Part shown: piece after piece, positions 30,758-54,830 of the stretch
Position numbering within the stretch: position 1 is the first letter of the stretch
Layout of the letters: each line of letters opens with the position of its first letter
DNA from: Fischerella muscicola PCC 7414
Lineage (GTDB): Bacteria; Cyanobacteriota; Cyanobacteriia; Cyanobacteriales; Nostocaceae
Reading direction: 5' to 3'
Assembly: GCF_000317205.1 (NCBI RefSeq)
Contig: NZ_AJLK01000004.1
Span: forward strand, 1-64,000
Length of the DNA: 64,000 nt
Notes under the pieces: generated by a model
The model's database searches: none
What the model saw: only the letters and a program-made list of their open reading frames with translations
What the model was told of the DNA's origin: nothing
Made by a program: the position numbers and the translations under genes

Positions 30758-33157
30758 ATGACTGATTCAACTGCGACTAAAGCTACATTACAAGTCAACA
30801 ATCCCAATAGCATCACGATAGCGCTTTGCTGGTGTCTAGCTTGGGGAGACAAAAAGCAACCTCAGTTTCCTTTAAGTGTGTTGCAACAAATGCGACAGGC
30901 TTTGCATGAAGGGAAAGAAGTACCAGAAATAACCAAATCCCTTGTTGAGCAAGTTAAACAACTGCAAAGCATCCCTGAAGGTTATTTTCCCAAAACCCTT
31001 GATGAATTAAACAATGATTATCCTGAATTATGGAAACAGCAGACTCGCATTGGCTTAGTTTACGGTGGTGCGACCAAGATTAAACAGTATGTATTTGAAG
31101 CGGCTAAACTTCCGGATATTCGCGGTGCATCAGCATTACTTGACAGAATTAATTTAGTTGATTTGCCTGCTTTTTTTGGTTGTGAACAACATCCTGATTA
31201 TCCTCAATGTCAACAAGCAAAAAATTACTGCAAAAAAGTCAGAGAAAATTGGTTAGATAAACCAGAAAACTTCCCTCAACTTTCACAAGCATTGATTCCA
31301 GAGTTAATTATTTATTCTACAGGTGGAAATATTCTGGCGTTTTGTCCTGCTGCTTTTGTTGATGATTTAGCTAATGCGATTGAAAAACGTTATACAGAAG
31401 AAACTTTGACAGCTAATTCCTGCGCGGTGGGAGGAAAATTTAAGCCATTAGAAATCCAATTTGGCTTGTTGCCAGATGAATTAAATAATGAGACATTCTG
31501 GTTAGAAAAATATCTAAAAAATCTAGATAATCAATTAATTCACGCTTATTTTGCTCAACCTGACACAAATTCCGAAGAAGCTTTTAAAGAACGCAAAACA
31601 TTTAATGAATTGGCTGGAAAGTTAGCAGCAAAATTTAATCAAAGGCGGAATGGCAATAAATTGCAGGAAAGTGATAGAAGCTTGCGTTGTTATCCGCCTA
31701 TGTTTGAAACTCATCCCTACTTAAAGCGAGATGAAGGCGATCGTCGTTCTGCTATTATCCAAGCGAAAAGTTCTCCCGACGATCCAAGTGAGGGACTTCC
31801 TGACGATCCGTGGTTTTCAGAAGCATCCGCAAGGAAGAGATACGTAGGACAAATAGCTAAAAGAGACAATAGTTCAAAAAAATGGTATGAAAAGGCAGGT
31901 TTTGCCTGGGAACCTGGTGAGGATGCAGTAGAAAGTTGGGTTGACAAGTTTGAGCAATATTTACATGATACTCCCCACAAATACTACGGTAAAATCCGTT
32001 CCGAAAATCTTCACCCCAGCCGAGTTAAAGAAGCACTTTCTGTTAGAGAAATTGGCGATGCTAGCGCTCCAAATGGCTTTATTGCTTATATTTATGCAGA
32101 TGGAAACAACATGGGAGGTTACATCCAAAAAGAAATCAAAAATCCGGAAGACTATCAACGCTTTAGCCGGGATATTTCTGATGCTACAGAAAAATCAGTT
32201 TATGCAGCTTTAACAAAACATCTTCAACCCCACAAATTAAATTCAAAGTTGCAAGCAGAAAGAAAAAGTACAAAAGAAGTGTGGATTCATCCGTTTGAAA
32301 TTTTAACTATTGGTGGGGATGATGTGATGTTGATTGTGCCAGCAGATAAAGCACTTGCTATCGCTAAAACAATTGGTGAAGAGTTTGAAAGACAACTTTT
32401 AAACAAAGGAAAACGTTACAAATCGGACAAGAATTATAATCCACAATTGGTGCATCGCTATCATGGCAAAAAAATAATTACAGATGAGAAACAATGTAAA
32501 TTAAGTATGTCAACAGGGGTGTTAATTACTGCTGAAGACACACCAATTTACTATGCAGAAAAACTTACTAGTCAATTGTTGAAATCTGCTAAAAAATATG
32601 CCAAAGACCTCAGAAAACAGAATTATTATGGCGGAACAGTTGACTTTTTGGTGATGAAAGCTGTAACGATGATTTCTTCTAATATTGGGGAATTTCGTTC
32701 TCAGGGATTAATCAAATCAGGACAAGGACAGCAAAAACTCAAGCTATATGCTGTACCCTATACTTTACACGAACTGGGTGGACTTTTGGAAACTGCTCAG
32801 GTTTTAAAGGATGCAGAATTTCCGCGATCGCAACTCTACCAAATTCGTAATCTACTAGAACGAGGTAAACAGACAGCAATACTCAACTATCGTTATTTTC
32901 GACTGCGACTAACTAACAAAAACGCTCAGAATTTATTGAAAACTCAATTTGAAGATGCATGGTGCAAACCAAAGCAACAAAATAACAACGGAAATCTTGC
33001 ACCTTGGATGTCTTTAAAAGAGGACAAACAAGGATCTCAAGAAAAAGTCACTTATGAAACTATTTGGCGAGATTTAGTCGATTTATATCCTTTTATTAAA
33101 AAGTCACATAACACTTCTAATCCATCACAGTTACAACAACAGACTTCGTCAACATGA
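30758..33157 (+). CDS. cas10: Cas10 large subunit (type III-D-like), GGDD intact, no HD motif
   Basis: The 799-residue signature subunit of type III CRISPR effector complexes. The first Palm-like part is marked by GGATKIKQYVFEAAKLPDIR and RGASALLDRIN (about residues 106-131). The second Palm domain has IYADGNNMGGYI (about 444-455) and the cyclase motif IGGDDVMLIVP with GGDD at 519-522, which makes cyclic oligoadenylates from ATP on target RNA binding. I find no His-Asp pair at the N-terminus, so the single-strand DNase HD domain seems absent. A C-terminal helical region (about 600-799) probably includes the Cas11-like bundle. It is the first gene of an eleven-gene operon and overlaps the next gene by 4 nt (ATGA). 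Confidence 0.93.
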   Translation: MTDSTATKATLQVNNPNSITIALCWCLAWGDKKQPQFPLSVLQQMRQALHEGKEVPEITKSLVEQVKQLQSIPEGYFPKTLDELNNDYPELWKQQTRIGLVYGGATKIKQYVFEAAKLPDIRGASALLDRINLVDLPAFFGCEQHPDYPQCQQAKNYCKKVRENWLDKPENFPQLSQALIPELIIYSTGGNILAFCPAAFVDDLANAIEKRYTEETLTANSCAVGGKFKPLEIQFGLLPDELNNETFWLEKYLKNLDNQLIHAYFAQPDTNSEEAFKERKTFNELAGKLAAKFNQRRNGNKLQESDRSLRCYPPMFETHPYLKRDEGDRRSAIIQAKSSPDDPSEGLPDDPWFSEASARKRYVGQIAKRDNSSKKWYEKAGFAWEPGEDAVESWVDKFEQYLHDTPHKYYGKIRSENLHPSRVKEALSVREIGDASAPNGFIAYIYADGNNMGGYIQKEIKNPEDYQRFSRDISDATEKSVYAALTKHLQPHKLNSKLQAERKSTKEVWIHPFEILTIGGDDVMLIVPADKALAIAKTIGEEFERQLLNKGKRYKSDKNYNPQLVHRYHGKKIITDEKQCKLSMSTGVLITAEDTPIYYAEKLTSQLLKSAKKYAKDLRKQNYYGGTVDFLVMKAVTMISSNIGEFRSQGLIKSGQGQQKLKLYAVPYTLHELGGLLETAQVLKDAEFPRSQLYQIRNLLERGKQTAILNYRYFRLRLTNKNAQNLLKTQFEDAWCKPKQQNNNGNLAPWMSLKEDKQGSQEKVTYETIWRDLVDLYPFIKKSHNTSNPSQLQQQTSST

Positions 33158-33867
33158 TTTTTTTGCAGAATTTACCTCAAAATCAAATTCAAACTATTCA
33201 ACTCATCGCAGTAATTGATACTGCATTGTGTGTTGGTGCTGGTGGTTCTGATAGTTCCCTTGCAGACAAACCCATAGTCCGCAATGCTAAAGGACAACTA
33301 GTTATTCCTGCCTCTCAATTAAAGGGTAGATTACGCCATGAATGCGAAAAGCTAGCAAGAGGATTAGGATGGCAAATATTTGCATCACCCAAAGCAGAAA
33401 CACTTTGTCCAACAGAAGCACAAGTTAATCCTAGATTTAAGTCTGATTATCAACTAGCTGGTTATCAAGGCTATCACTGTTTTATTTCCAAAATCTTCGG
33501 TAATCCTATACTTCCATCACGCATTGTGGTTGATGATCTCATTTGTGACATCGAACGACAAGACTTACCAGAGGTATTACGTCCTGGTGTCACCATCAAC
33601 CGTCGCCGTCGCACCGCAGAAGAACAAAAACTCTACTTTTTAGAAACTTCCCCAGCTAATAATCAACTGGAATTTACTGGGAAGATTCATTTACTTCCAG
33701 AATGTCCAGAATATGCCAAACCCTTGATTTTAGCTGCTTTGCGCCATATCCATGCTTTGGGTGGTAGTAAATCTGTTGGGTTGGGTTGGTTGAAATGGAA
33801 GGAACTCGAAACACTACCAAAAGATGATCAAACCTGGAAATTGTTAATACCAGAGGCAAAAGTATGA
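33154..33867 (+). CDS. Cas7/Csm3-like RAMP subunit 1
   Basis: A 237-residue RAMP protein forming part of the crRNA-binding backbone. It begins with the RRM-like strand IQTIQLIAVIDTALCVGAGG, a candidate catalytic Asp in SSLADKPIVRN (about residue 38) and the conserved IPASQLKGRLRHE block (about 51-63). It ends with a Gly-rich loop (HALGGSKSVGLGWLKW). The segment GVTINRRRRTAEEQKLYFLE matches the Csm3 thumb region. Csm3/Cas7 subunits cut target RNA at 6-nt intervals using this Asp. Its start overlaps the cas10 stop and its stop overlaps the csx10 start, indicating translational coupling. Confidence 0.88.
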   Translation: MIFLQNLPQNQIQTIQLIAVIDTALCVGAGGSDSSLADKPIVRNAKGQLVIPASQLKGRLRHECEKLARGLGWQIFASPKAETLCPTEAQVNPRFKSDYQLAGYQGYHCFISKIFGNPILPSRIVVDDLICDIERQDLPEVLRPGVTINRRRRTAEEQKLYFLETSPANNQLEFTGKIHLLPECPEYAKPLILAALRHIHALGGSKSVGLGWLKWKELETLPKDDQTWKLLIPEAKV

Positions 33868-35234
33868 TGCGAATTATATTAGAGATTACAGCTTTGTCTC
33901 CATTAGCGATCACTGGGAAAAAACCTGGTTCAGTGAGTGAAGCCGAAGATCATATTCCTGGTTCAGTAATTCGAGGCGTGATCGCATCTCAAATTCTACA
34001 ACTATCTAATCAACAAATACCAGGCATATCAGAACAAAATTTAGTATTAGGCGGCGGTGACTTTGAATCACTTTTTTTAGGTGATGAACCTGCCATTTTT
34101 CAAAATGCTTATCCAGCCGTAGCTAAGATTGCAGATGAGTCCAATTCTGGTAAAACTAAGTCTGACCTCATTTCCAGAATTGTGAATGATGAAGTTATGG
34201 TTTTACCTGCAACAGCAGTTAGTTCTAAAACAAATCCAGGTTTTTTACCCAAAGGTAACGGAGTTTTTGATACACTAATAGATCGCTTTTGTGCAGATGC
34301 ATACAATTATCCTTACGACCCTAGCGATCCAAAATCTCTGGAAGAGAAAACAGATGCACGGGTTGAACCATACAGCAGCTTCTACAGTAAAACTAACGAC
34401 AGCAAAATCAAATATAAATACCGCAGTCATTCTATTAGCACTCGCTTTCTAACACGAGTTGGAATTAATCGCCGCAGAGCCACATCAGAAGATGATATCC
34501 TTTACAGCATTGAAGTTTTAAATGAGTCATTTGTTGAAGACTCCAATACAAATTCTAAAAACTGGCATCCTGTTGTTTATCGAAGTTCAGTTTTAGTTCA
34601 AAATCCAGAATTAGCCAAATCTCTGAGTAATTTTATCAATCAAAATTCTGAGAATTTTCGTTTAGGTGGTGCAACTTCACGAGGTTTAGGCAAGGTTGTA
34701 ATTCAAGCAAAAATAGAGGAACACTCAGCAGATATCAAAGCAAGAGTCACTGAATTTAACAAACAACTTGAAGAACGTTGGGAATTGTGGTCAGTATTTG
34801 GTGAACCCGAAAAAAATCTATTAGAAAATCGCACTTATTTTACTCTTGACCTGCAAGCTGACGCAATTCTTACAGACAATTGGCGACACACCACGGTAAT
34901 TTCCACAGAAATGTTGTGTCAATTTGTAGAATTAGAGAATGAATTCTTGCAACTAGATAGGGATGAAAAAGATAATTTTCTTAAGTTAGAAGTAGCATAT
35001 AGCAGCTATAACTATCGTTCTGGTTGGAATGCAGCTTGGGGACTAATGAAAGATATAGAATTAGTCACTAATAGAGGCTCTGTATATTTATTTAGTACAA
35101 ATAAACCGGATTTATGGTTAGAAAAATTAAAGGATTTAGAACTAAAAGGAGTAGGCGATCGCACCTCTGAAGGTTTTGGACAAATACAAATTAGTAACGA
35201 ATTTCATAGTGTATTTCGGGAGAAAGCTAAATGA
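33864..35234 (+). CDS. csx10: Csx10, Cas5-like RAMP of subtype III-D
   Basis: A 456-residue RAMP protein with the Csx10 start LEITALSPLAITGKKPGSVS, then DHIPGSVIRGVIASQIL (about residues 30-46), and a Gly-rich loop FRLGGATSRGLGKVVIQ (about 270). A second RAMP-like half ends with LKGVGDRTSEGFGQIQIS near the C-terminus. Csx10 is the subtype III-D counterpart of Cas5, which holds the 5' handle of the crRNA next to Cas10. The gene is joined to its neighbours by ATGA-type overlaps at both ends. This is the main reason to assign the locus to subtype III-D and not III-A or III-B. Confidence 0.85.
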   Translation: MMRIILEITALSPLAITGKKPGSVSEAEDHIPGSVIRGVIASQILQLSNQQIPGISEQNLVLGGGDFESLFLGDEPAIFQNAYPAVAKIADESNSGKTKSDLISRIVNDEVMVLPATAVSSKTNPGFLPKGNGVFDTLIDRFCADAYNYPYDPSDPKSLEEKTDARVEPYSSFYSKTNDSKIKYKYRSHSISTRFLTRVGINRRRATSEDDILYSIEVLNESFVEDSNTNSKNWHPVVYRSSVLVQNPELAKSLSNFINQNSENFRLGGATSRGLGKVVIQAKIEEHSADIKARVTEFNKQLEERWELWSVFGEPEKNLLENRTYFTLDLQADAILTDNWRHTTVISTEMLCQFVELENEFLQLDRDEKDNFLKLEVAYSSYNYRSGWNAAWGLMKDIELVTNRGSVYLFSTNKPDLWLEKLKDLELKGVGDRTSEGFGQIQISNEFHSVFREKAK

Positions 35235-35644
35235 GTGAACAATCAGATCCACAAAAACAACTCAAGATTCAAAAGGGAATTCTTCAAGCTGAAGATGAGC
35301 TAGTTGTCTGGATTCAAACTGCTTTAGATAACACAAAATATGGAGACTTAGAAGAATCACAATTTCGTAACTTAGTACGACTTTCTGACACAACTGATAG
35401 TGCAGAAGTAATTAAAAATTTCATCCGCTATCAAGTTGGTAGAGATAAAAAATGGGGTAGAGGCAAAGAATCACTAGCTGAAAAAATTATTGAAGATATT
35501 GATGGTAATATTCAGAAAAAAGCCCAAGAAATTGCTAAATCTTGTCAAAGCGATTTTAAACCAATTTGGTTAGAGATGATACGCCGTTATTTAGGCTATG
35601 GCGCACGATATCTCAAATATAAGCGCGATGGTATTCAAGTATAA
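35231..35644 (+). CDS. Small helical protein, candidate Cas11 (Csm2/Cmr5-like) subunit
   Basis: A 137-residue, charged, apparently all-helical protein. Features: an N-terminal helix (LKIQKGILQAEDELVVWIQT), a middle segment FRNLVRLSDTTDSAEVIKNF followed by IRYQVGRDKKWGRG, and a C-terminal helix ending in RYLGYGARYLKYKRDG. Size, composition and position between csx10 and a cOA effector fit the small subunit (Cas11), which lines the inner filament of type III complexes. I recognise no direct signature, so this is inference from context. Its start overlaps the csx10 stop (ATGA); 36 nt follow before the CARF-HEPN gene. Confidence 0.65.
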   Translation: MSEQSDPQKQLKIQKGILQAEDELVVWIQTALDNTKYGDLEESQFRNLVRLSDTTDSAEVIKNFIRYQVGRDKKWGRGKESLAEKIIEDIDGNIQKKAQEIAKSCQSDFKPIWLEMIRRYLGYGARYLKYKRDGIQV

Positions 35645-35680: not shown

Positions 35681-36997
35681 ATGCCAAAAATTCTTTTAGT
35701 GACAGTTGGTGATTCTCATCAACCGATTGTGACTGCAATTCGTGCTCTTCAACCTGATCGCGTTATCTTTGTGTGTTCTGATGGTAGTAAAGGCAGTAAA
35801 TCCCAAGTAATAGGAGAAGGATCTCCCTGTGAAGTCCGACGTGGAACAGAAGTAATTGAAAGATTACCTAATATTCCTACACAAGTAGGATTAAGCGATC
35901 GCTTTCAACAAGATCGAGATTTAATTTTAATTCAAGAACCAGATGATTTATCAGAATGCTATCTGAAAACCTCATTATGTATTCGGAGTATTCAGCAAGA
36001 GTTACCAGATGCTCAAACTATGGCTGATTATACAGGCGGCACTAAATCTATGTCTGTAGGATTGGCAATGGCTGCTCTTGATTATCAAGTCACATTATAT
36101 GTAACTACGACTGTCCGAACAAACATTATTAAGATCGAAAGAGGAGAATTGCCTGGACAGGCAACAGTAGCACCCGTAGTTGCACAGCGCACCCTTGGAC
36201 AATTCTTACCAATTTTCTTACAACAATACAACTATCCAGCAGCGATCGCTCAACTAAAGCGACTTCTGTCATCAATGGAATTGCCACCTGAGACTAGACG
36301 ACAAATTCGAACCTTATATGCTTGTTGCTGTGGGTTGGATGCCTGGGATCGATTTGAACATAGGGAGGCTTTGGAATTTTTTGAGTCTCAGATGAAATAC
36401 CCTGAAATTCGACAACTGGGGTTATTTCTTAAGCGTGTGATTAACAGTCGAGGACAGATCGATGAAAAGTTTGATTTTAGTAATAGTACGGTAGGACACG
36501 GTTATGAGATTGTCCAAGACTTAATACTAAATGCAGAACGACGTGCTGCTCAAGAGCGTTACGATGATGCAGTTGGTAGACTTTACCGAGCTTTAGAATT
36601 ATTAGCTCAAATTTGTCTGTTGAAATCATATGGTATAAAAACAGGTGACGTTGATATTCAGCAACTACCGGAATCTTTGCGGGATGAATATGAGCAAAAA
36701 CGCTCTTCTGTTAAGAAAAAAATTCAACTGGCTTTGAAAGATAGCTATGAGCTTTTAAGTAAACTGCCTGATGACCCAATAGGACAACTTTATCAGCAAA
36801 ATGCAAACAAAATTATTAATGCCTTAGAAGTTCGTAATAACTCGTTATTTGCTCATGGATTTCAACCAATTACTAGTAGTGATTATGAGGATGTAAGTAA
36901 AGTATTTGTAAATTTTATCCAATCTGCTATTGAGACCGTTACTCCACATAAATTGAAATTACAATCGCCACAATTTCCCACTACCCTAGAAATTTAA
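35681..36997 (+). CDS. CARF-HEPN ribonuclease (Csm6-like, TIGR02710 type)
   Basis: A 438-residue cyclic-oligoadenylate-activated RNase candidate. The N-terminal CARF domain (residues 1-160) starts KILLVTVGDSHQPIVTAIRA and carries the ligand-loop motif DYTGGTKSM (116-124). A helical linker follows. The C-terminal HEPN domain has the catalytic pair R385 and H392 in VRNNSLFAHGF (Rx6H form seen in this family). When Cas10 makes cOA, CARF binding should switch on degradation of RNA by the HEPN dimer. It has its own ribosome-binding site (AGGAG about 12 nt before the ATG) and is embedded between effector-complex genes. A dedicated ring nuclease is not visible nearby. Confidence 0.9.
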   Translation: MPKILLVTVGDSHQPIVTAIRALQPDRVIFVCSDGSKGSKSQVIGEGSPCEVRRGTEVIERLPNIPTQVGLSDRFQQDRDLILIQEPDDLSECYLKTSLCIRSIQQELPDAQTMADYTGGTKSMSVGLAMAALDYQVTLYVTTTVRTNIIKIERGELPGQATVAPVVAQRTLGQFLPIFLQQYNYPAAIAQLKRLLSSMELPPETRRQIRTLYACCCGLDAWDRFEHREALEFFESQMKYPEIRQLGLFLKRVINSRGQIDEKFDFSNSTVGHGYEIVQDLILNAERRAAQERYDDAVGRLYRALELLAQICLLKSYGIKTGDVDIQQLPESLRDEYEQKRSSVKKKIQLALKDSYELLSKLPDDPIGQLYQQNANKIINALEVRNNSLFAHGFQPITSSDYEDVSKVFVNFIQSAIETVTPHKLKLQSPQFPTTLEI

Positions 36998-37041: not shown

Positions 37042-37914
37042 ATGTTCGATACTTTCAAAAATCGCTTGCAAATTATAGGAAAACTCACTACAATCACCGC
37101 ATTAAGAATTAGTGCAGGTCGTTCTAGTGAACCCATAGGATCTGATTTACCAGTCATTAAAGATGCTTTGGGTAATCCACTCATCCCAGGTTCTAGCTTT
37201 AAAGGTGCAATGCGATCGCGTCTCGAAAGTTTTCTCAGAGGAATTGTAGGAAGCGATCGCAAACTAGTCGCCAACCCCGCAAACGAAGATGAATGGTCAA
37301 TTACATCTCAGGAAATGAAGCAGTTAAAAGAGACTTTTGATAACGATGAGGCTTTAACTGCGGAAATTATCAAGCATACAGATTTAATTTCTCACCTGTT
37401 CGGTTCTCCTTGGATTGCTAGTAAATTCCAAGTCCGAGATTTAACAGTAGTAACTAATACTTGGTTTGGACAATACCAAGAAAGAGATGGCGTCGCTATT
37501 GATCGCGACACAGAAACAGCAGCAGATGGTAAACTTTATGATTTCCAAGTAGTTCCCGGTGGTACGCAATTTGAATTTCAGGCTGTAGTGGAAAATGCTG
37601 AACCTTGGGAATTAGGACTACTAATGATCGGCTTGCATCAATTTGAAACAGAACAGATACCTTTGGGTGGTGGACGTTCTCGTGGTTTGGGTGTGGTTAA
37701 ACTGGAAATAGACAAAATGGACTGGATTGATGTTGATAAAGATCCAGAAAAATTATTGACATACTTACAAGAATTAGTCAGTAATCATACGACTGATACT
37801 ATCTCCAGCTATGCAGATGGTAAACAGTTTAAAGATATTTGGACTCATGACCTTATTACTTATCTCAGAGAAAATATAGCTAAGCAATCTACCACTGTTC
37901 AGCCAAATACTTGA
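37042..37914 (+). CDS. Cas7/Csm3-like RAMP subunit 2
   Basis: A 290-residue RAMP protein. It has the N-terminal strand ITALRISAGRSSEPIG, the Asp of GSDLPVIKD (D35, the expected position of the Csm3 catalytic Asp), the block LIPGSSFKGAMRSRLESF (about 47-64), the thumb segment GVAIDRDTETAADGKLYDFQ and the Gly-rich loop IPLGGGRSRGLGVVKLE. It should be a backbone and target-RNA-cutting subunit. It starts 44 nt after the CARF-HEPN gene. Its stop codon overlaps the strong ribosome-binding site of the next gene. Confidence 0.9.
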   Translation: MFDTFKNRLQIIGKLTTITALRISAGRSSEPIGSDLPVIKDALGNPLIPGSSFKGAMRSRLESFLRGIVGSDRKLVANPANEDEWSITSQEMKQLKETFDNDEALTAEIIKHTDLISHLFGSPWIASKFQVRDLTVVTNTWFGQYQERDGVAIDRDTETAADGKLYDFQVVPGGTQFEFQAVVENAEPWELGLLMIGLHQFETEQIPLGGGRSRGLGVVKLEIDKMDWIDVDKDPEKLLTYLQELVSNHTTDTISSYADGKQFKDIWTHDLITYLRENIAKQSTTVQPNT

Positions 37915-37920
37915 GGAGGT
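37913..37920 (+). promoter_or_regulatory. Consensus Shine-Dalgarno GAGGAGGT
   Basis: A full anti-16S match (GAGGAGGT) ends 4 nt before the ATG at 37925 and overlaps the upstream TGA. It is the strongest ribosome-binding site in the operon; most other joints rely on ATGA overlaps. It predicts efficient independent translation of the nuclease-like gene. Confidence 0.8.
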
Positions 37921-37924
37921 CAAT

Positions 37925-38545
37925 ATGGCTTTCAGTAACTACAAAACTATCGGTGAAGTTCTCAAAGCATTTCAAGTCACCTATACTGAATCAAATTTTA
38001 TGGGTGAAGTTGAGTTTCAAGTCTCTGACTATTTCCGGGAGGACTTAGAAACAGTGATGCGAGAAGGAGTGGTTAATAACTCAGAATTTGCTGTGTGCGA
38101 AAATTTGATCTACCCAGTTTTAAAAGAAGTATGGAAACGCTACAGTAGCAGATTTACTTTGTGGAGTCACCAATCCTTTAATTATGATGAAAATTTGTCA
38201 GGTTTCCCAGAGTATATCCTGGCGAAAAGGTCGCCTTTAGGGAAAGTAGTTTTTGATAAGCCATATTTCATCTTAGTAGAAGCAAAACAGGATAACTTTG
38301 AGGCTGGATGGGCGCAATGTATTGCTGAGATGATCGCAGCACAGAAACTAAATAATGAATTTGCCATCACTATATTTGGAATTGTTTCTAATGGCGATCG
38401 CTGGCAGTTTGGTAAATTAGAATCAGAAAAATTTACCAAAAATCTAACTTTTTATAGTATTCAGGAACTAGATACATTGTTTGCTGCTGTTAATTACATT
38501 TTCCAACAGTGTGATTTGCAGCTAAATAATCTGGTAGCTGCTTAA
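37925..38545 (+). CDS. PD-(D/E)xK nuclease-like protein in the CRISPR operon
   Basis: A 206-residue protein with a restriction-endonuclease-like signature. It has an N-terminal helix with Glu (FAVCENLIYPVLKEVW, E59), an acidic residue after a strand (GFPEYILAKR, E96) and the strand-borne ExK pair in FILVEAKQDN (E119, K121). A helix with Gln follows (WAQCIAEMIAAQ). These are the core residues of the PD-(D/E)xK fold. No CARF or SAVED sensor is visible, so if it works with the CRISPR complex it is not obviously switched by cyclic nucleotides. Similar short proteins are, from memory, common outside CRISPR loci in cyanobacteria, so its presence might be chance insertion. The strong ribosome-binding site and same-strand fit argue for coexpression. 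Confidence 0.7.
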   Translation: MAFSNYKTIGEVLKAFQVTYTESNFMGEVEFQVSDYFREDLETVMREGVVNNSEFAVCENLIYPVLKEVWKRYSSRFTLWSHQSFNYDENLSGFPEYILAKRSPLGKVVFDKPYFILVEAKQDNFEAGWAQCIAEMIAAQKLNNEFAITIFGIVSNGDRWQFGKLESEKFTKNLTFYSIQELDTLFAAVNYIFQQCDLQLNNLVAA

Positions 38546-38571: not shown

Positions 38572-39522
38572 ATGCATAAAAGATTCGTTAATCACTGCAC
38601 AATTGATATCACTCTCATTCCCGATGGTCCGATTCTGATTAAATCGGGCAAAGAAGGTGCTGATCCAACCAAGCCTGATATGGAGTTTGTGGAAACATAT
38701 CATGCTGGAGGACGTTCTATATATTTGCCAGGAAGCAGTTTAAAAGGTGCTATTCGCGCCCATGCAGAACGAATTGTTAGGACGGTAGGTAGAGATAGAC
38801 GCGATTCTAATAATTTAGATATACTTTGGGCAAATGACCCATTAAATGATAAATACGATTATCTCCAAAATAAATCGTCTAGTGAGATTTACAAACTTTC
38901 CTCTTTTACAGACCAAATGTTTGGCAATACTTCTATCGCTAGCCGTATCAGAATAGAAGATGCTTATCCTGATCAATCCCAACCATTGAAAATAGAAGAA
39001 CGTAATGGAGTAGCAATCGACCGAATATTTGGTTCTGTTGCAGTCGGCCCTTTCAACTATCAAGTTTGCACTGCTGGTGAATTCCGTACCAAAATTCATT
39101 TAAAGAATTTTACCTTGGCACAGTTAGGTTTAATTGGTTTAGTATTGCGAGATTTAAATGATCGTTGGTTTGGCTTAGGTTTTGCTAAATCTCGTGGTTT
39201 GGGTACAGTAGAGGTGAAGTTAAATCAAGCCGTTGTGCAATATCCTGGCTGTATTTTATCGGAAGATAAACAACAAATTTGTGCTATTGGTAGTCAAAAA
39301 AAATGGGCTAATACTTACCTTTTAGGTGTAGGAGAGTTTTTAGAACCAGATGAAGCAAAATTATATGCTTTCCCTACAGTAGACCATCAAGATACACCCA
39401 TCGCAGCCCAAGAAATGGATTTAGGTTTTGGTGTCCAGCTCATTTGGCAAGAAGGAAGAGTTCAAGATTTATTTGAGCGTTCTGTAAGGTCTTGGAGTAA
39501 TTTATTGGTACAGACGAAATGA
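38572..39522 (+). CDS. Cas7/Csm3-like RAMP subunit 3
   Basis: A 316-residue RAMP protein: N-terminal strand CTIDITLIPDGPILIKSG, Asp candidate in DPTKPDMEF (D31/D36), the block YLPGSSLKGAIRAHAERI (about 51-68), thumb-like GVAIDRIFGSVAVGPFNYQV and Gly-rich loop FGLGFAKSRGLGTVEVK. It then has a C-terminal extension of about 100 residues (from about 215) not present in the other Cas7 genes. The thumb and loop closely resemble subunit 2 (37042-37914), so the two are likely duplicates. The stop overlaps the next start (ATGA). Confidence 0.88.
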   Translation: MHKRFVNHCTIDITLIPDGPILIKSGKEGADPTKPDMEFVETYHAGGRSIYLPGSSLKGAIRAHAERIVRTVGRDRRDSNNLDILWANDPLNDKYDYLQNKSSSEIYKLSSFTDQMFGNTSIASRIRIEDAYPDQSQPLKIEERNGVAIDRIFGSVAVGPFNYQVCTAGEFRTKIHLKNFTLAQLGLIGLVLRDLNDRWFGLGFAKSRGLGTVEVKLNQAVVQYPGCILSEDKQQICAIGSQKKWANTYLLGVGEFLEPDEAKLYAFPTVDHQDTPIAAQEMDLGFGVQLIWQEGRVQDLFERSVRSWSNLLVQTK

Positions 39523-40040
39523 AACCTTTTGTTGGTTATAAAAAAAATCCTTTATCAGTCTTGGAATTACTAGATTTAATACCAAACTTCATAATTGAAC
39601 CTAGCTATTATTTTTTGCGTTGGACTCACAAAGTCAGTGGCATTTTAGAAGAACCACCAACAGAAACAGACTTTCCCATGCTAGAAGGACAAATGTTCAA
39701 TCATGAGTGTGAACTGCGGTGGAAATACAAACAAAAAAATACTTATGAAATACTGTTATTAACTATTAATGACATTCATCATAGCTTTGAGTTAGTCGGG
39801 AAAAATTGGCGCATAGAACCAAGTAATATCAAAAAATTTCCCTCCTATGCTTATCCCGCTTATGGGTATCGACCTGATGAAACTCGTTTTCCTAAAAAGC
39901 TTATTTTCCCAAAAGATTTAGATACTCGACTGCACGAAGAAAAAAACAAAAAACCAAAATTAGCTCAACGTTATTTTATTGATGATCGAACTTCAACTGT
40001 GCAATTTGTAGCTTTGACTGTAGAACTACCGCAATTATGA
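39519..40040 (+). CDS. Csx19-like subunit of type III-D (tentative)
   Basis: A 173-residue protein with no catalytic motif. Aromatic- and charge-rich segments (YYFLRWTHKVSG; NHECELRWKYKQKNTYEILL) precede a C-terminal YFIDDRTSTVQFVALTVE. Size, the YxxD..TS..QF ending and position fit Csx19 (TIGR03984-type), a structural partner known from subtype III-D complexes such as the Synechocystis III-Dv complex. The family call is from memory and position, not from a search. It overlaps both neighbours by 4 nt. Confidence 0.55.
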   Translation: MKPFVGYKKNPLSVLELLDLIPNFIIEPSYYFLRWTHKVSGILEEPPTETDFPMLEGQMFNHECELRWKYKQKNTYEILLLTINDIHHSFELVGKNWRIEPSNIKKFPSYAYPAYGYRPDETRFPKKLIFPKDLDTRLHEEKNKKPKLAQRYFIDDRTSTVQFVALTVELPQL

Positions 40041-41059
40041 CAACAAATCGTCCACAACGTCCTAACCCTGAACTAGCACCAAAACCTTATCAATTCGTCT
40101 CTTTTCCTAAAGAACGTCCCAAGTTACAATGTCCTGTGGGACATCATAAATATTTTAGCGATCGCCTACATGGCACTTTATATCTGAAGCTGAAAGTGCA
40201 GACATCTCTCCACGTCTCCACCGGGGTAGTTGTCATGGGTAGCGACATCGGTAACAACCGCATTTCCTTGATTAAAACCATGATCCAAGGTGTTGACCAA
40301 AAGCTTTCAATTGGCGGTACCTCCCTCAAAGGCTGCATCCGGTCTGCATACGAAGCAATTACCAACAGCACTTTAGCAGTAATCACTTCTAAGTATAAAT
40401 CCCAAATTCCCCCCGAAAGACTACCTTGCCGTAACAAAGAACAACTTTGTCCCGCCAGTCGGGTATTCGGCGCGTTAGATTGGCAGGGTTTACTAGATTT
40501 CAACGATGCCAAATGTGAGAAAATCGGATTTACTGCTGGCTTTATGCCTTCGCTGTATCGTCCCCGTCCCGAACAACGCAGCGCATACTTTGTTCGTGGT
40601 CTAGTAGCAGGTCGCAAATTTTACTACCATACAATCAGGGCTATAGATAAAGGGCAAAATGCTGGTATCCCCGTACAGCAAGCCGCAAGAGAGTACACTT
40701 TCACAACTCAGTTGCATTTTAAGAATTTACTACCAGAAGAGTTAGGAACTTTATTAATTATCTTAGGACAAGACCCCAAATATCCCATTGCCTTGAAAGT
40801 GGGAGGTGGTAAACCTATCGGTATGGGGACAATGACGGTGAGTGTGGAAAAAATCGAACAACCGCAAAACCTCAAGCAACGCTATTCATCATATCAGCTA
40901 AGTGAATCTGATGAATTAACAGGAGAAAAACTACAAAAATTTATACAACAAAATATCAAAATTGCCCACTCACGCCTGATTCAGAAACCGCAACTAGAAG
41001 AACTTACAACCATACTGCGCTACCCTACCGACCGTGAACCACCAGCAGGAATGTACTAA
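40037..41059 (+). CDS. Cas7-like RAMP subunit 4 (end subunit or Cas7-with-insertion candidate)
   Basis: A 340-residue RAMP protein. After a Pro-rich N-terminus of about 45 residues (RPQRPNPELAPKPYQF), the first strand LYLKLKVQTSLHVSTGVVVM is followed by SIGGTSLKGCIRSAYEAI (about 92-109). A CPASRVFGALDWQG segment follows (about 137-150), and the Gly-rich loop is VGGGKPIGMGTMTV. It has Cys residues (CPVGH; CRNKEQLCPAS) that might bind zinc. It differs from the other three Cas7 genes and could cap the filament, like Csm5, or match the Cas7-insertion subunit of III-Dv. Which role applies cannot be told from sequence. It overlaps the csx19-like stop. Confidence 0.8.
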   Translation: MTTNRPQRPNPELAPKPYQFVSFPKERPKLQCPVGHHKYFSDRLHGTLYLKLKVQTSLHVSTGVVVMGSDIGNNRISLIKTMIQGVDQKLSIGGTSLKGCIRSAYEAITNSTLAVITSKYKSQIPPERLPCRNKEQLCPASRVFGALDWQGLLDFNDAKCEKIGFTAGFMPSLYRPRPEQRSAYFVRGLVAGRKFYYHTIRAIDKGQNAGIPVQQAAREYTFTTQLHFKNLLPEELGTLLIILGQDPKYPIALKVGGGKPIGMGTMTVSVEKIEQPQNLKQRYSSYQLSESDELTGEKLQKFIQQNIKIAHSRLIQKPQLEELTTILRYPTDREPPAGMY

Positions 41060-41061
41060 TT

Positions 41062-41706
41062 ATGACTTTAGTTGAATTTGATTCAGAATCTTTGACAGAT
41101 GCAGAATGGGATATTGCCCATGCGATCGCTCAAACTTTAGTCAAAGCAGATACAGATGTCAACGAATTGGGAAAAGCGATCGCCTATTTACGCACTATAG
41201 TCAAAGAACCAGATGCAACTTCCAGATTTTTCAAATATCTCAAAACCTTAGTGAGTAACGGTAAACAAATCAGTCACAGCAACCGAACCATAGATTATTA
41301 CCGCAGTATCGAGAAAACTTGTAGTGATTACCTTAAAACCATCACCGATGCTCAAAAAATCCTGCAAATTTTAGGTTGGGTATCTCGCCTGATGCGTTAC
41401 TACAAAGATGCAGGTGTACCAATAGGAGAAATTGCCATTTCTACCCCATCTCCTGTAGAGTCAGCGCGTCAAGTAGAAATAGCCAAAGTAATGAAGTCGC
41501 AAGACTTCCAAGTTGAGCAAATATTAGAGGCAAAAGTTACCAAAATCAGTGGTAACAAGGTGACTTACGAGATACTGGGAACAATAAAGCTAACCGAGAG
41601 AGAACCGAAGAAAGCCGGTGTTCTCCAGGAAGGACAAACAGTGAAGGTAAAGATTGTATCTCTCAAAGAAGACGGAAGTATTAAAAGCGTTAAGTGTGTT
41701 GATTAA
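41062..41706 (+). CDS. Unknown type III-D operon protein: helical domain plus OB-fold-like tail
   Basis: The last gene of the operon, 2 nt after RAMP 4. The 214-residue product has an N-terminal helical domain (about 1-150; WDIAHAIAQTLVKADTDVNE and CSDYLKTITDAQKILQILGW). Its C-terminal 60 residues have a strand pattern (VEQILEAKVTKISGNKVTYE; LQEGQTVKVKIVSLKEDGSI) resembling an S1/OB or KOW-like nucleic-acid-binding fold. I recognise no named family. Tight coupling suggests a role with the complex, such as crRNA or nascent-transcript binding; this is inference. Confidence 0.7.
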   Translation: MTLVEFDSESLTDAEWDIAHAIAQTLVKADTDVNELGKAIAYLRTIVKEPDATSRFFKYLKTLVSNGKQISHSNRTIDYYRSIEKTCSDYLKTITDAQKILQILGWVSRLMRYYKDAGVPIGEIAISTPSPVESARQVEIAKVMKSQDFQVEQILEAKVTKISGNKVTYEILGTIKLTEREPKKAGVLQEGQTVKVKIVSLKEDGSIKSVKCVD

Positions 41707-41941: not shown

Positions 41942-43063
41942 TCAAACAGAATCAGAATTGTTCACCAAAGCCCGCCGTGCTAACTTTGCATAAGTCTTCA
42001 CCGTTTCATAAGGTATCCCCATATCCTGGGCTATAACTTGCAAAGATTCTCCCATTTCCCGACGCGCCAAAATAGTAGCCCATTTAGCTGCTATCTCTTC
42101 CGCCCGCACTCCTCCTGTCCGCTTGCGTTGCGCCTTAAAAATATCTGTTAAATCTTCAATTCTTTTTGCCAAAAAACTTTCTACATTTGGCACTTCTGGC
42201 GTTGCTTGTAATGACCAACCTAAGCGTGTTTGCCCCAATCCAAAGGTAGTCTTGTGACCAGTACCACAGTAAGGTGCAAGCTTCCCTAAAGCATAAAATA
42301 ACTTATAAAACTCCGGTTGCTTAGCTGCTTCTTTACTTAAACCAAATTCTACCGCGCCTGTAAACCCTGTAACAGCACCTTTCTTTCCTGCTAGTACTTT
42401 TGCGGATGTCAGTAGGTGACGAGTAATTAACACATGATCATCCACCCAAGCCAAAAATGTTTCTTGGTCAACAGGCATACCAGAAAAGTCATTCCAACGA
42501 CGTAGATAACTGTGGAAGACATTGGTAGGCATTGGTAAGGGTAGGTGATGACCTTTGCGACGGAAACTTGTTGGACTTAAAAATTGTAGTGCTATTGTGT
42601 CTTCATGGTCAGAGTTGAGTAACTCAGCATATGTGACGGCATGAGTAATTTGACACGATTTAATTTGTAGGGGTGCATTCCGTAAATTTACTTCTGTGGG
42701 CGGGTTTTTCAGCCATTGCGCCAGCCATGTTACTAGCCGCTTTGATAATGCTGTCACATACCAATGGTAAGTATTGCTAGCAAAAAGGTGCAACTGTTTA
42801 CCACTGCTGACCAATTTTCCATCTAATGCAGAGATTGTAAAAGGTTTTTCTGACTCGCCATCATGGAGATAAGCAGAAAGTTCTGGATCTACAGCACGCA
42901 CTTGATCCAGAAACCAAGCGTGCAGTCCAATGGTGTATTGGGGATAGATGGAAACATCTGCTTTGGGGGCTAATTCAAATACTAATCCCACTAGTTCCGT
43001 GTTCGCTGACCAGTTGAGGTGAGATTCGTAGTTATTAATTATGCTTGGGTTACTTCGAGGCAT
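41942..43063 (-). CDS. cas6: Cas6 crRNA endoribonuclease with C-terminal helix-turn-helix extension
   Basis: A 373-residue Cas6, which cuts pre-crRNA within the repeat. It has two RAMP-type halves with a candidate general-acid His48 (IGLHAWFLDQV), the central block FLSPTSFRRKGHHLPLPMPT (161-180), and the diagnostic Gly-rich loop GTGHKTTFGLGQTRL (267-281). Residues 298-373 are an extra domain: basic LTDIFKAQRKRTGG then RREMGESLQVIAQDMGIPYE-TVKTYAKLARRAL. This is a helix-turn-helix of the sigma-region-4/LuxR style, so the protein may also bind DNA. It is transcribed toward the effector operon from its own promoter. No repeat array is in the window, so its RNA substrate is encoded elsewhere. Confidence 0.9.
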   Translation of the reverse strand: MPRSNPSIINNYESHLNWSANTELVGLVFELAPKADVSIYPQYTIGLHAWFLDQVRAVDPELSAYLHDGESEKPFTISALDGKLVSSGKQLHLFASNTYHWYVTALSKRLVTWLAQWLKNPPTEVNLRNAPLQIKSCQITHAVTYAELLNSDHEDTIALQFLSPTSFRRKGHHLPLPMPTNVFHSYLRRWNDFSGMPVDQETFLAWVDDHVLITRHLLTSAKVLAGKKGAVTGFTGAVEFGLSKEAAKQPEFYKLFYALGKLAPYCGTGHKTTFGLGQTRLGWSLQATPEVPNVESFLAKRIEDLTDIFKAQRKRTGGVRAEEIAAKWATILARREMGESLQVIAQDMGIPYETVKTYAKLARRALVNNSDSV

Positions 43064-54612: not shown

Positions 54613-54830
54613 TTTTGTTGTCAGTTGTTAGTTGTTAGTTGTTTGGGGTTTTCCAACCAACAACCAACCACCAACAAAGAACTTTTGTGTTGTCAGTTGT
54701 TAGTTGTTAGTTGTTTGGGGTTTTCCAACCAACAACCAACCACCAACAAAGAACTTTTGTGTTGTCAGTTGTTAGTTGTTAGTTGTTTGGGGTTTTCCAA
54801 CCAACAACCAACCACCAACAAAGAACTAAT
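54613..54830. repeat. Three 72-bp tandem repeats between two kinase genes
   Basis: Three almost identical 72-bp units (GTTGTCAGTTGTTAGTTGTT...GGGGTTTTCC...CAACCAACCACCAACAAAGA) fill the gap. Each unit is itself an inverted repeat that could form a hairpin. A 72-codon plus-strand ORF across them (24-codon period) is a by-product. Confidence 0.9.

Follow-up and report, generated by a model that had tools for sequence, protein, structure and literature searches.

What is a small nuclease-like gene doing inside a type III CRISPR operon, and does it serve the effector complex or only live beside it? The question is raised by a 206-amino-acid protein encoded at positions 37925-38545 (+) of a 64,000-nucleotide stretch of Fischerella muscicola PCC 7414 (contig NZ_AJLK01000004.1), referred to as the window. 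We use the working name NUC for this protein and its homologues, L-numbers for loci and G-numbers for genomes.

A type III-D operon with an embedded gene

The host operon begins with cas10 (III-D/Cmr2-like; 30758-33157, +; PADLOC profile match, E 4.6e-62), whose product has a GGDD motif and no HD motif in its N-terminal part. On the same strand follow a Cas7-like gene of the Csx7/Csm3 family (33154-33867), csx10, the cas5 of type III-D (33864-35234; profile match, E 2.1e-125), a small subunit (35231-35644; PADLOC Csm2, III-D effector_SS), a CARF-HEPN effector of the Csx1/Csm6 type (35681-36997) and a second Cas7-like gene (Csx7; 37042-37914), directly upstream of NUC. Directly downstream are a Cas7-like gene called RAMPc here (38572-39522, +), csx19 (39519-40040, +; PADLOC, E 2.6e-42) and a further Cas7-like gene (40037-41059, +), related to TIGR03986 but under the cut-off of that model; the Cas7-like and CARF-HEPN assignments come from profile matches. 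The presence of Csx10 and Csx19 with Cas10 identifies the operon as type III-D. NUC is thus located between two cas7-like genes of a III-D operon, in agreement with a first-pass annotation of the sequence that had placed it within a type III operon.

Near the end of the operon, p214 (41062-41706, +) encodes an uncharacterized conserved protein of 214 residues; the window copy shows a weak S1-like C-terminal match, below the Pfam cut-off, and of the 42 III-D1 loci in a set of 80 retrieved with NUC as the query, 40 have a p214 relative. The convergent cas6 (41942-43063, -; profile matches) encodes a C-terminal stretch resembling sigma region 4 or a helix-turn-helix (E 1e-4, just under the Pfam cut-off). 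A simple array script, a weak method, reported no CRISPR array in the window and only a tandem repeat at 54616-54827; the same script reported arrays in 7 of 110 loci, one of which (L107) is tandem-repeat-like.

Translation of NUC starts at an ATG preceded by the ribosome-binding site GAGGAGGT (37913-37920, +), which overlaps the stop of the preceding cas7-like gene and is separated from the start codon by a spacer of 4 nt, CAAT. That this is the best site of the operon, as claimed earlier, holds for the 11 operon starts compared: NUC alone has a full 7/7 match to AGGAGGT, and the second-best start, ahead of csx1, has 6/7. Strong sites recur among homologues. A score of at least 6/7 is observed for 33 of 48 III-D1 copies of NUC versus 22 of 347 other cas starts in III-D1 loci, the latter set crudely at the first start codon to follow a stop. 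In the wider family the same score is reached by 3 of 48 copies: strong ribosome-binding sites are a feature of the copies embedded in III-D loci and not of the family as a whole. It is less frequent in III-A copies (2/8) and in CRISPR-free copies (6/22), and these two counts speak against the reading of NUC as an accessory DNase that we prefer below.

Fold, active site and sequence family

The AlphaFold model of NUC (m7a35e840ade8; pLDDT 88.9, pTM 0.88) comprises a helix (54-73), three strands (77-81, 96-101 and 114-120), a second helix (125-142) and a further strand (150-155). E59 is carried by the first helix, P95-E96 opens the second strand, E119 is on the third with K121 directly after it, and Q131 is on helix 125-142. 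Helix, three strands, helix, strand is the usual order of the PD-(D/E)xK core, so that the predicted structure confirms this fold for NUC. Fold prediction was the check that the first-pass annotation had proposed for its nuclease assignment, and no fold lacking the core was obtained.

The core residues named earlier, E59, E96 and E119-x-K121 with a glutamine-bearing helix, are also conserved: in an alignment of 51 NUC homologues E59, K121 and Q131 are invariant, and E96 and E119 occur in at least 90% of the sequences. The corresponding codons are at 38099-38101 (E59), 38210-38212 (E96), 38279-38281 (E119) and 38285-38287 (K121), all on the + strand. Among 146 aligned rows of the wider family, the four positions read EEEK in 72 of the 76 rows with a type III label; E(D/E)EK is found in 64 of the 70 rows without one, with the classical D more frequent at position 96.

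Restriction-endonuclease domains figure among the fold matches of the model: BpuSI (Z 11.3 over 144 residues), DrdV (9.5) and HsdR (6.9). NUC thus has its fold in common with the N-terminal nuclease domain of type IIG enzymes (BpuSI, DrdV) and with HsdR, but it has no methyltransferase, helicase or target-recognition part. Foldseek returned no match at E ≤0.001, and a sequence search of the PDB nothing credible. NUC matched no Pfam family at E ≤1 and no NCBIfam model. CARF and SAVED profiles gave no match either (for CARF, at E ≤1), as expected from the earlier reading that NUC has neither domain; many CARF profiles matched the neighbouring CARF-HEPN protein.

One profile does recognize NUC. 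PADLOC model PDLC01472, named PD_DExK (CAS-I to CAS-VI; associated), is matched by residues 53-197 at E 1.2e-48 (profile positions 2-144 of 146). The CRISPR association of the family is therefore already on record, in an entry that gives no mechanism, context, function or role, and a literature search of titles and abstract starts found no published function for the protein. New here are the distribution over subtypes III-D1, III-D2 and III-A and the setting beside Cas10 proteins that have no HD nuclease motif.

The top fold matches listed for the model, nearly full-length, are chains 5 and s of the mammalian mitoribosome (Z up to 13.7, 186 residues, 6% identity), which we take to be mL37 and mL65. 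As judged from the predicted structure, these chains may descend from a PD-(D/E)xK nuclease of NUC architecture; in titles and abstract starts, a literature search found no statement of a nuclease descent for them.

Linkage to type III loci

Among the matches listed, relatives of any kind are present in 92 of 386 genomes of the phylum. Copies with at least 66% identity to NUC number 36 by hand count, again among the matches listed, with split copies counted once, at most 8 candidates scored per genome and weak matches left out: 26 have a type III locus or remnant around or near them and 10 do not. The doubtful cases are five of the 26, namely G215, with only a cas6 near a contig end, G011, with III-D2 fragments and a CARF effector, and three copies at several kb from the III-D1 genes (two in G354, one in G191), and, among the 10 without linkage, the copy of G008 at a contig end. 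The copy G354:C145 has no hit to our type III panel and is syntenic with the stand-alone copies L167 and L170.

A pooled, de-duplicated set, biased in its sampling (7 duplicates dropped, hits aligned over fewer than 185 residues left out), gives a similar picture: 74 of 96 copies at or above 66% identity are type III-linked, versus 2 of 50 below. The 74 linked copies comprise 48 in III-D1 loci, 6 in remnants, 10 in III-D2, 8 in III-A and 2 in partial loci. The other 22 clade copies, with no type III gene in reach, count against an accessory role in type III systems. A copy is classed as 'none' when no panel protein is hit at full length within 9 kb of it, III-D1 fragments number at most one, and NUC is not directly followed by a start of the downstream cas7; some contigs end before 9 kb, and CRISPR genes outside the panel would be missed, as in the plasmid hit H2. 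Cas6, Uma2 and CARF-RelE hits were not counted as type III, and L121 (59% identity) is classed as 'none' because the CARF-RelE gene about 7 kb away was not counted. Among the neighbours of 14 CRISPR-free loci (96 of 99 listed proteins), no cas family appeared in the matches listed (25 of 94 and 25 of 409 families in two libraries).

Position is conserved as well. The 80 loci fetched with NUC as the query, a set biased to close relatives, comprise 42 III-D1 loci, 6 III-D1 remnants, 8 III-D2, 6 III-A, 1 partial (III-A) and 17 without type III genes in reach. The downstream cas7 gene is present in 32 genomes, in 16 of which NUC adjoins it, one of these copies being broken (hand count); the slot holds NUC-like fragments in two more loci, L172 (a 17-residue N-terminal match, weak, E 0.003) and L180 (38 C-terminal residues). 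Conservation in place, which the first-pass annotation had suggested examining in other cyanobacterial loci, is thus observed in many III-D1 operons, and the copies do not show the random scatter without CRISPR linkage that would have spoken against its proposal. NUC is very probably an accessory nuclease-like protein of cyanobacterial type III systems whose Cas10 has no HD domain.

Contexts across subtypes

In III-D1 operons NUC is found between two cas7 genes, a slot that is the same in many genera; in III-D2 it follows the large cas7 gene; in III-A it either follows the CARF-HEPN gene or separates csm4 from csm5. A tree of the 146 family rows unites all type III-labelled rows in a single group, whose support of 88/82 is below the level that the tool stars. 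The group has 101 rows, 25 of them without a type III label, and the groups beside it are stand-alone. On starred branches, the III-A label (8 rows) has to change at least 7 times, and so does the III-D2 label (11 rows). Gains, losses or conversion between copies may account for these changes, but a single ancient association for each subtype does not. The III-A link consists of repeated but rare cases: linked-clade copies, in a clade that is itself rare (at least 36 copies in 386 genomes), and six III-A loci among the 80 found with NUC. Counted from the III-A side, a NUC-family gene is found in 2 of the 20 III-A loci of the 386 genomes, near the general density of the family.

More distant NUC relatives (28-33% identity) are located inside two III-D1 operons (L173, L182), and distant family members in two III-B-type regions (L228, L233). 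These four cases are weak evidence because of the background of the wider family, whose multi-copy, stand-alone members showed little if any linkage to type III genes.

Do these changes of context betray a selfish or mobile single gene for which type III operons are a safe harbour? The family is multi-copy, some loci contain neighbouring or repeated copies (L086, L087, L095, L104, L106), and along with the many context changes on the tree, III-A and III-D2 labels are no more clustered than shuffled ones (57 and 114 of 500 shuffles were as low). However, the III-D1 slot is constant in many genera, and loss of the gene in two loci has left gene fragments, not a clean excision. When flanks were compared by eye across contexts, nothing conserved was noticed outside the reading frame and the ribosome-binding site of NUC. 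No relative was found in the phage records searched or, by pattern search, in viral contigs, and the best PHROG match of the window protein has an E-value of 0.27. We consider a selfish element improbable.

Another small nuclease-like family occurs at the same place. In two III-D1 operons a Uma2 gene (PF05685, DUF820) occupies the exact NUC slot between the two cas7 genes (L178:9407-10024 and L179:5448-6080). Like NUC, Uma2 is a putative endonuclease of small size encoded on its own, and it is multi-copy in the loci that we read; unlike the five Uma2 proteins from type III loci that score 104-139 bits, NUC does not match PF05685. We dropped Uma2 as a functional substitute for NUC, its density in type III loci being near background: 4 genes in 162 kb of NUC-less III-D1 loci, 6 in 241 kb of III-A and 12 in 495 kb of III-B type, compared with 12 in 652 kb of other DNA.

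Cas10 keeps its cyclase motif and has no HD

The Cas10 proteins of NUC-linked loci are uniform. GGDD is retained in all 50 complete ones. Their first 100 residues contain an HD dyad in a single case, L102, where it is non-canonical; the other 49 have none. By eye, the N-terminus reads WCLAWG(D/E/N) in III-D1 Cas10 versus WGLLHDP in the III-B type, a term that we use for loci with a long Cmr2-type Cas10 whose other genes were left untyped. In the model of the window Cas10 (pLDDT 75.9), the N-terminal end is only a short helical stub. Of the 40 III-B-type Cas10s, 31 have a canonical HD, and no NUC match at 50% identity or more was found beside any of the 40 genes.

The candidate function that NUC would replace is type III DNA cleavage by the HD nuclease domain of Cas10; the HD fold is unrelated to PD-(D/E)xK, and NUC is a separate protein. 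The Cas10 pattern suggests that NUC supplies this cleavage, but the test is not a clean one. Nine III-B-type loci and 13 complete Cas10s of NUC-less III-D1 loci are HD-less without NUC, and of 18 complete HD-less Cas10s from III-A loci just one is NUC-linked. We therefore rejected the correlation with HD loss as proof of a role for NUC: it sets the III-B type apart from all others, but within III-A or III-D1 it is no predictor of NUC, since the Cas10s read there have no HD whether NUC is present or absent.

According to the part of PMC11229360 available to us, HD is present in 65% of III-A and 3% of III-D loci, the III-D figure being in line with our own; similarly, the available part of PMC11026444 describes the HD pocket of the Synechocystis III-Dv Cas10 as disrupted and predicted to be inactive. 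All 18 complete Csm1-type Cas10s from 19 III-A regions of our survey (L186-L204, of which L193 is NUC-linked) are free of an HD dyad over their first 100 residues, in contrast to the 65% given for III-A in that part of PMC11229360.

Relation to cyclic-oligoadenylate signalling

A CARF effector gene is present between the small subunit and the cas7 gene in 29 of 39 inspected NUC-bearing III-D1 loci (26 CARF-RelE-like, 3 CARF-HEPN); none was recognized in 9 loci and one locus is incomplete. NUC is thus usually an addition to a cyclic-oligoadenylate effector. The effector at this position is swapped while NUC stays, as illustrated by the CARF-HEPN gene of the window, the gene at L054:7938-9116 and the CARF-RelE-like genes in 26 of the 39 loci. 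Can1 and Can2/Card1, like NUC, are PD-(D/E)xK nucleases of type III loci, but they carry a CARF domain; NUC has none and co-occurs with CARF effectors, and L103 even holds a PADLOC CARF4--CARF_PDDEXK protein alongside NUC.

Another parallel is NucC, a stand-alone protein of PD-(D/E)xK-type fold that has no CARF domain and is a type III neighbour. The available part of PMC11229360 states that NucC is activated by cA3. The first-pass annotation had read the missing sensor domains of NUC as a hint of control by something else, or of a constitutive nuclease; because NucC responds to cA3 without CARF, the absence of CARF and SAVED does not show a control other than cyclic oligoadenylate. NUC might then be an effector activated allosterically by a cyclic oligonucleotide made by the Cas10 cyclase, whose motif is intact in every complete linked Cas10. 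NucC (7zgw) does appear in the fold list of NUC, but as a weak match (Z 6.3 over 150 residues), a score that common arrangements also reach, with no sequence match seen, and a PADLOC scan at E ≤1 returned PD_DExK only, from a library that may not include a NucC model. Furthermore, most loci inspected already have a CARF effector, and the CRISPR-free copies with low dN/dS described below would be left without a linked activator. We give a NucC-like activation small odds.

A role in adaptation, or in crRNA or prespacer trimming, as for Cas4, is more improbable still. The fold would fit, and the plasmid copy H2 is located in an island with cas4, cas1, cas3, cas6 and csx3. However, Cas4 is defined by a four-cysteine iron-sulphur cluster, and NUC, with only three cysteines, cannot have a cluster of this type; the three cas1 matches of the source genome are all on other contigs.

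NUC and the complex are separable

At several decayed III-D1 loci or traces (L048, L052, L053, L060, L065, L091), the NUC frame is open and its neighbours are truncated or gone. The CRISPR-free copies L098, L104 and L105 share their guaA-cbiD neighbours with the III-A-linked copy L102 (genes named by assigning family counts to clusters of neighbours). The opposite also occurs: some III-D1 operons that are otherwise retained (L172, L180; G385) have a lost or broken NUC. Retention in decayed loci and loss from retained ones show that NUC and the complex are separable: despite the sampling, NUC is neither strictly needed by the type III complex nor strictly dependent on it. In the decayed III-D1 locus L065 (9380-10624; also in L010), the NUC frame is joined to a piece of the upstream Cas7 gene and, by eye, to a Uma2-like N-terminal piece.

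The gene is under purifying selection, as seen in sequence comparisons: the median dN/dS is 0.126 over 206 NUC pairs (Nei-Gojobori, pairs with dS between 0.08 and 0.7, duplicate loci removed; 0.128 over 233 pairs with duplicates), 0.131 over the 40 pairs that include a remnant copy and 0.104 over 5 CRISPR-free pairs. As loci were found via NUC, sampling favours intact copies, and pairwise dN/dS includes the time before decay. Persistence of copies after loss of the locus favours some independence of NUC from the complex.

These observations feed the strongest rival to a DNase working for type III systems, namely an autonomous defence or maintenance nuclease that cuts foreign or damaged DNA alone and shares defence islands with type III genes without functional contact. 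Open frames beside decayed loci, CRISPR-free copies at the guaA-cbiD site, low dN/dS in remnant and CRISPR-free comparisons, and a wider family that lives mostly apart from type III genes are all as expected for such a nuclease. The bias of sampling toward intact copies and the pre-decay share of dN/dS weaken this case, however, and three further observations argue against autonomy. One constant III-D1 slot together with repeated presence in III-A and III-D2 operons is above chance for such small targets in multi-Mb genomes; none of the 40 III-B-type Cas10 genes sampled had a member of the NUC clade beside it; and the strong ribosome-binding site is a property of III-D-embedded copies (33/48 versus 3/48). 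We regard autonomous defence as possible but rather unlikely.

A proposed accessory DNase arm of HD-less type III systems

The reading that we prefer, with a probability of roughly 0.4 for the statement as a whole, casts NUC as a metal-dependent, stand-alone endonuclease of the PD-(D/E)xK type that most likely cleaves DNA and acts as an accessory arm of type III loci whose Cas10 has no HD. A clade of a widespread cyanobacterial nuclease family would have become a recurring accessory gene of type III loci whose Cas10s keep the cyclase motif and have no HD nuclease motif; NUC would be translated strongly alongside the complex, and would cut DNA, an activity that the HD-less complex lacks, in parallel to the cyclic-oligoadenylate effectors. 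We infer the metal dependence and the DNA substrate, the strong translation together with the complex, and the cleavage in place of the missing HD activity. A precedent exists in non-Cas nucleases that aid type III immunity, as reported in the available part of PMC9762709.

A broader proposal, which we make tentatively and think doubtful as it stands, is that HD-less III-D1, III-D2 and III-A systems have repeatedly recruited the same sensor-less, separately encoded PD-(D/E)xK DNase as a detachable arm for cutting DNA; it would act next to the cyclic-oligoadenylate effectors and could persist as an immune gene in its own right once the CRISPR locus is gone.

In the available part of PMC11229360, type III-D is suggested to act mainly via cyclic-oligoadenylate signalling, its Cas10 rarely having an HD nuclease. 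If NUC gives III-D a DNase, this view would be incomplete for a large cyanobacterial group. The distribution also amounts to a natural experiment: one nuclease is associated with three type III subtypes, is missing from some retained loci and is kept by decayed ones.
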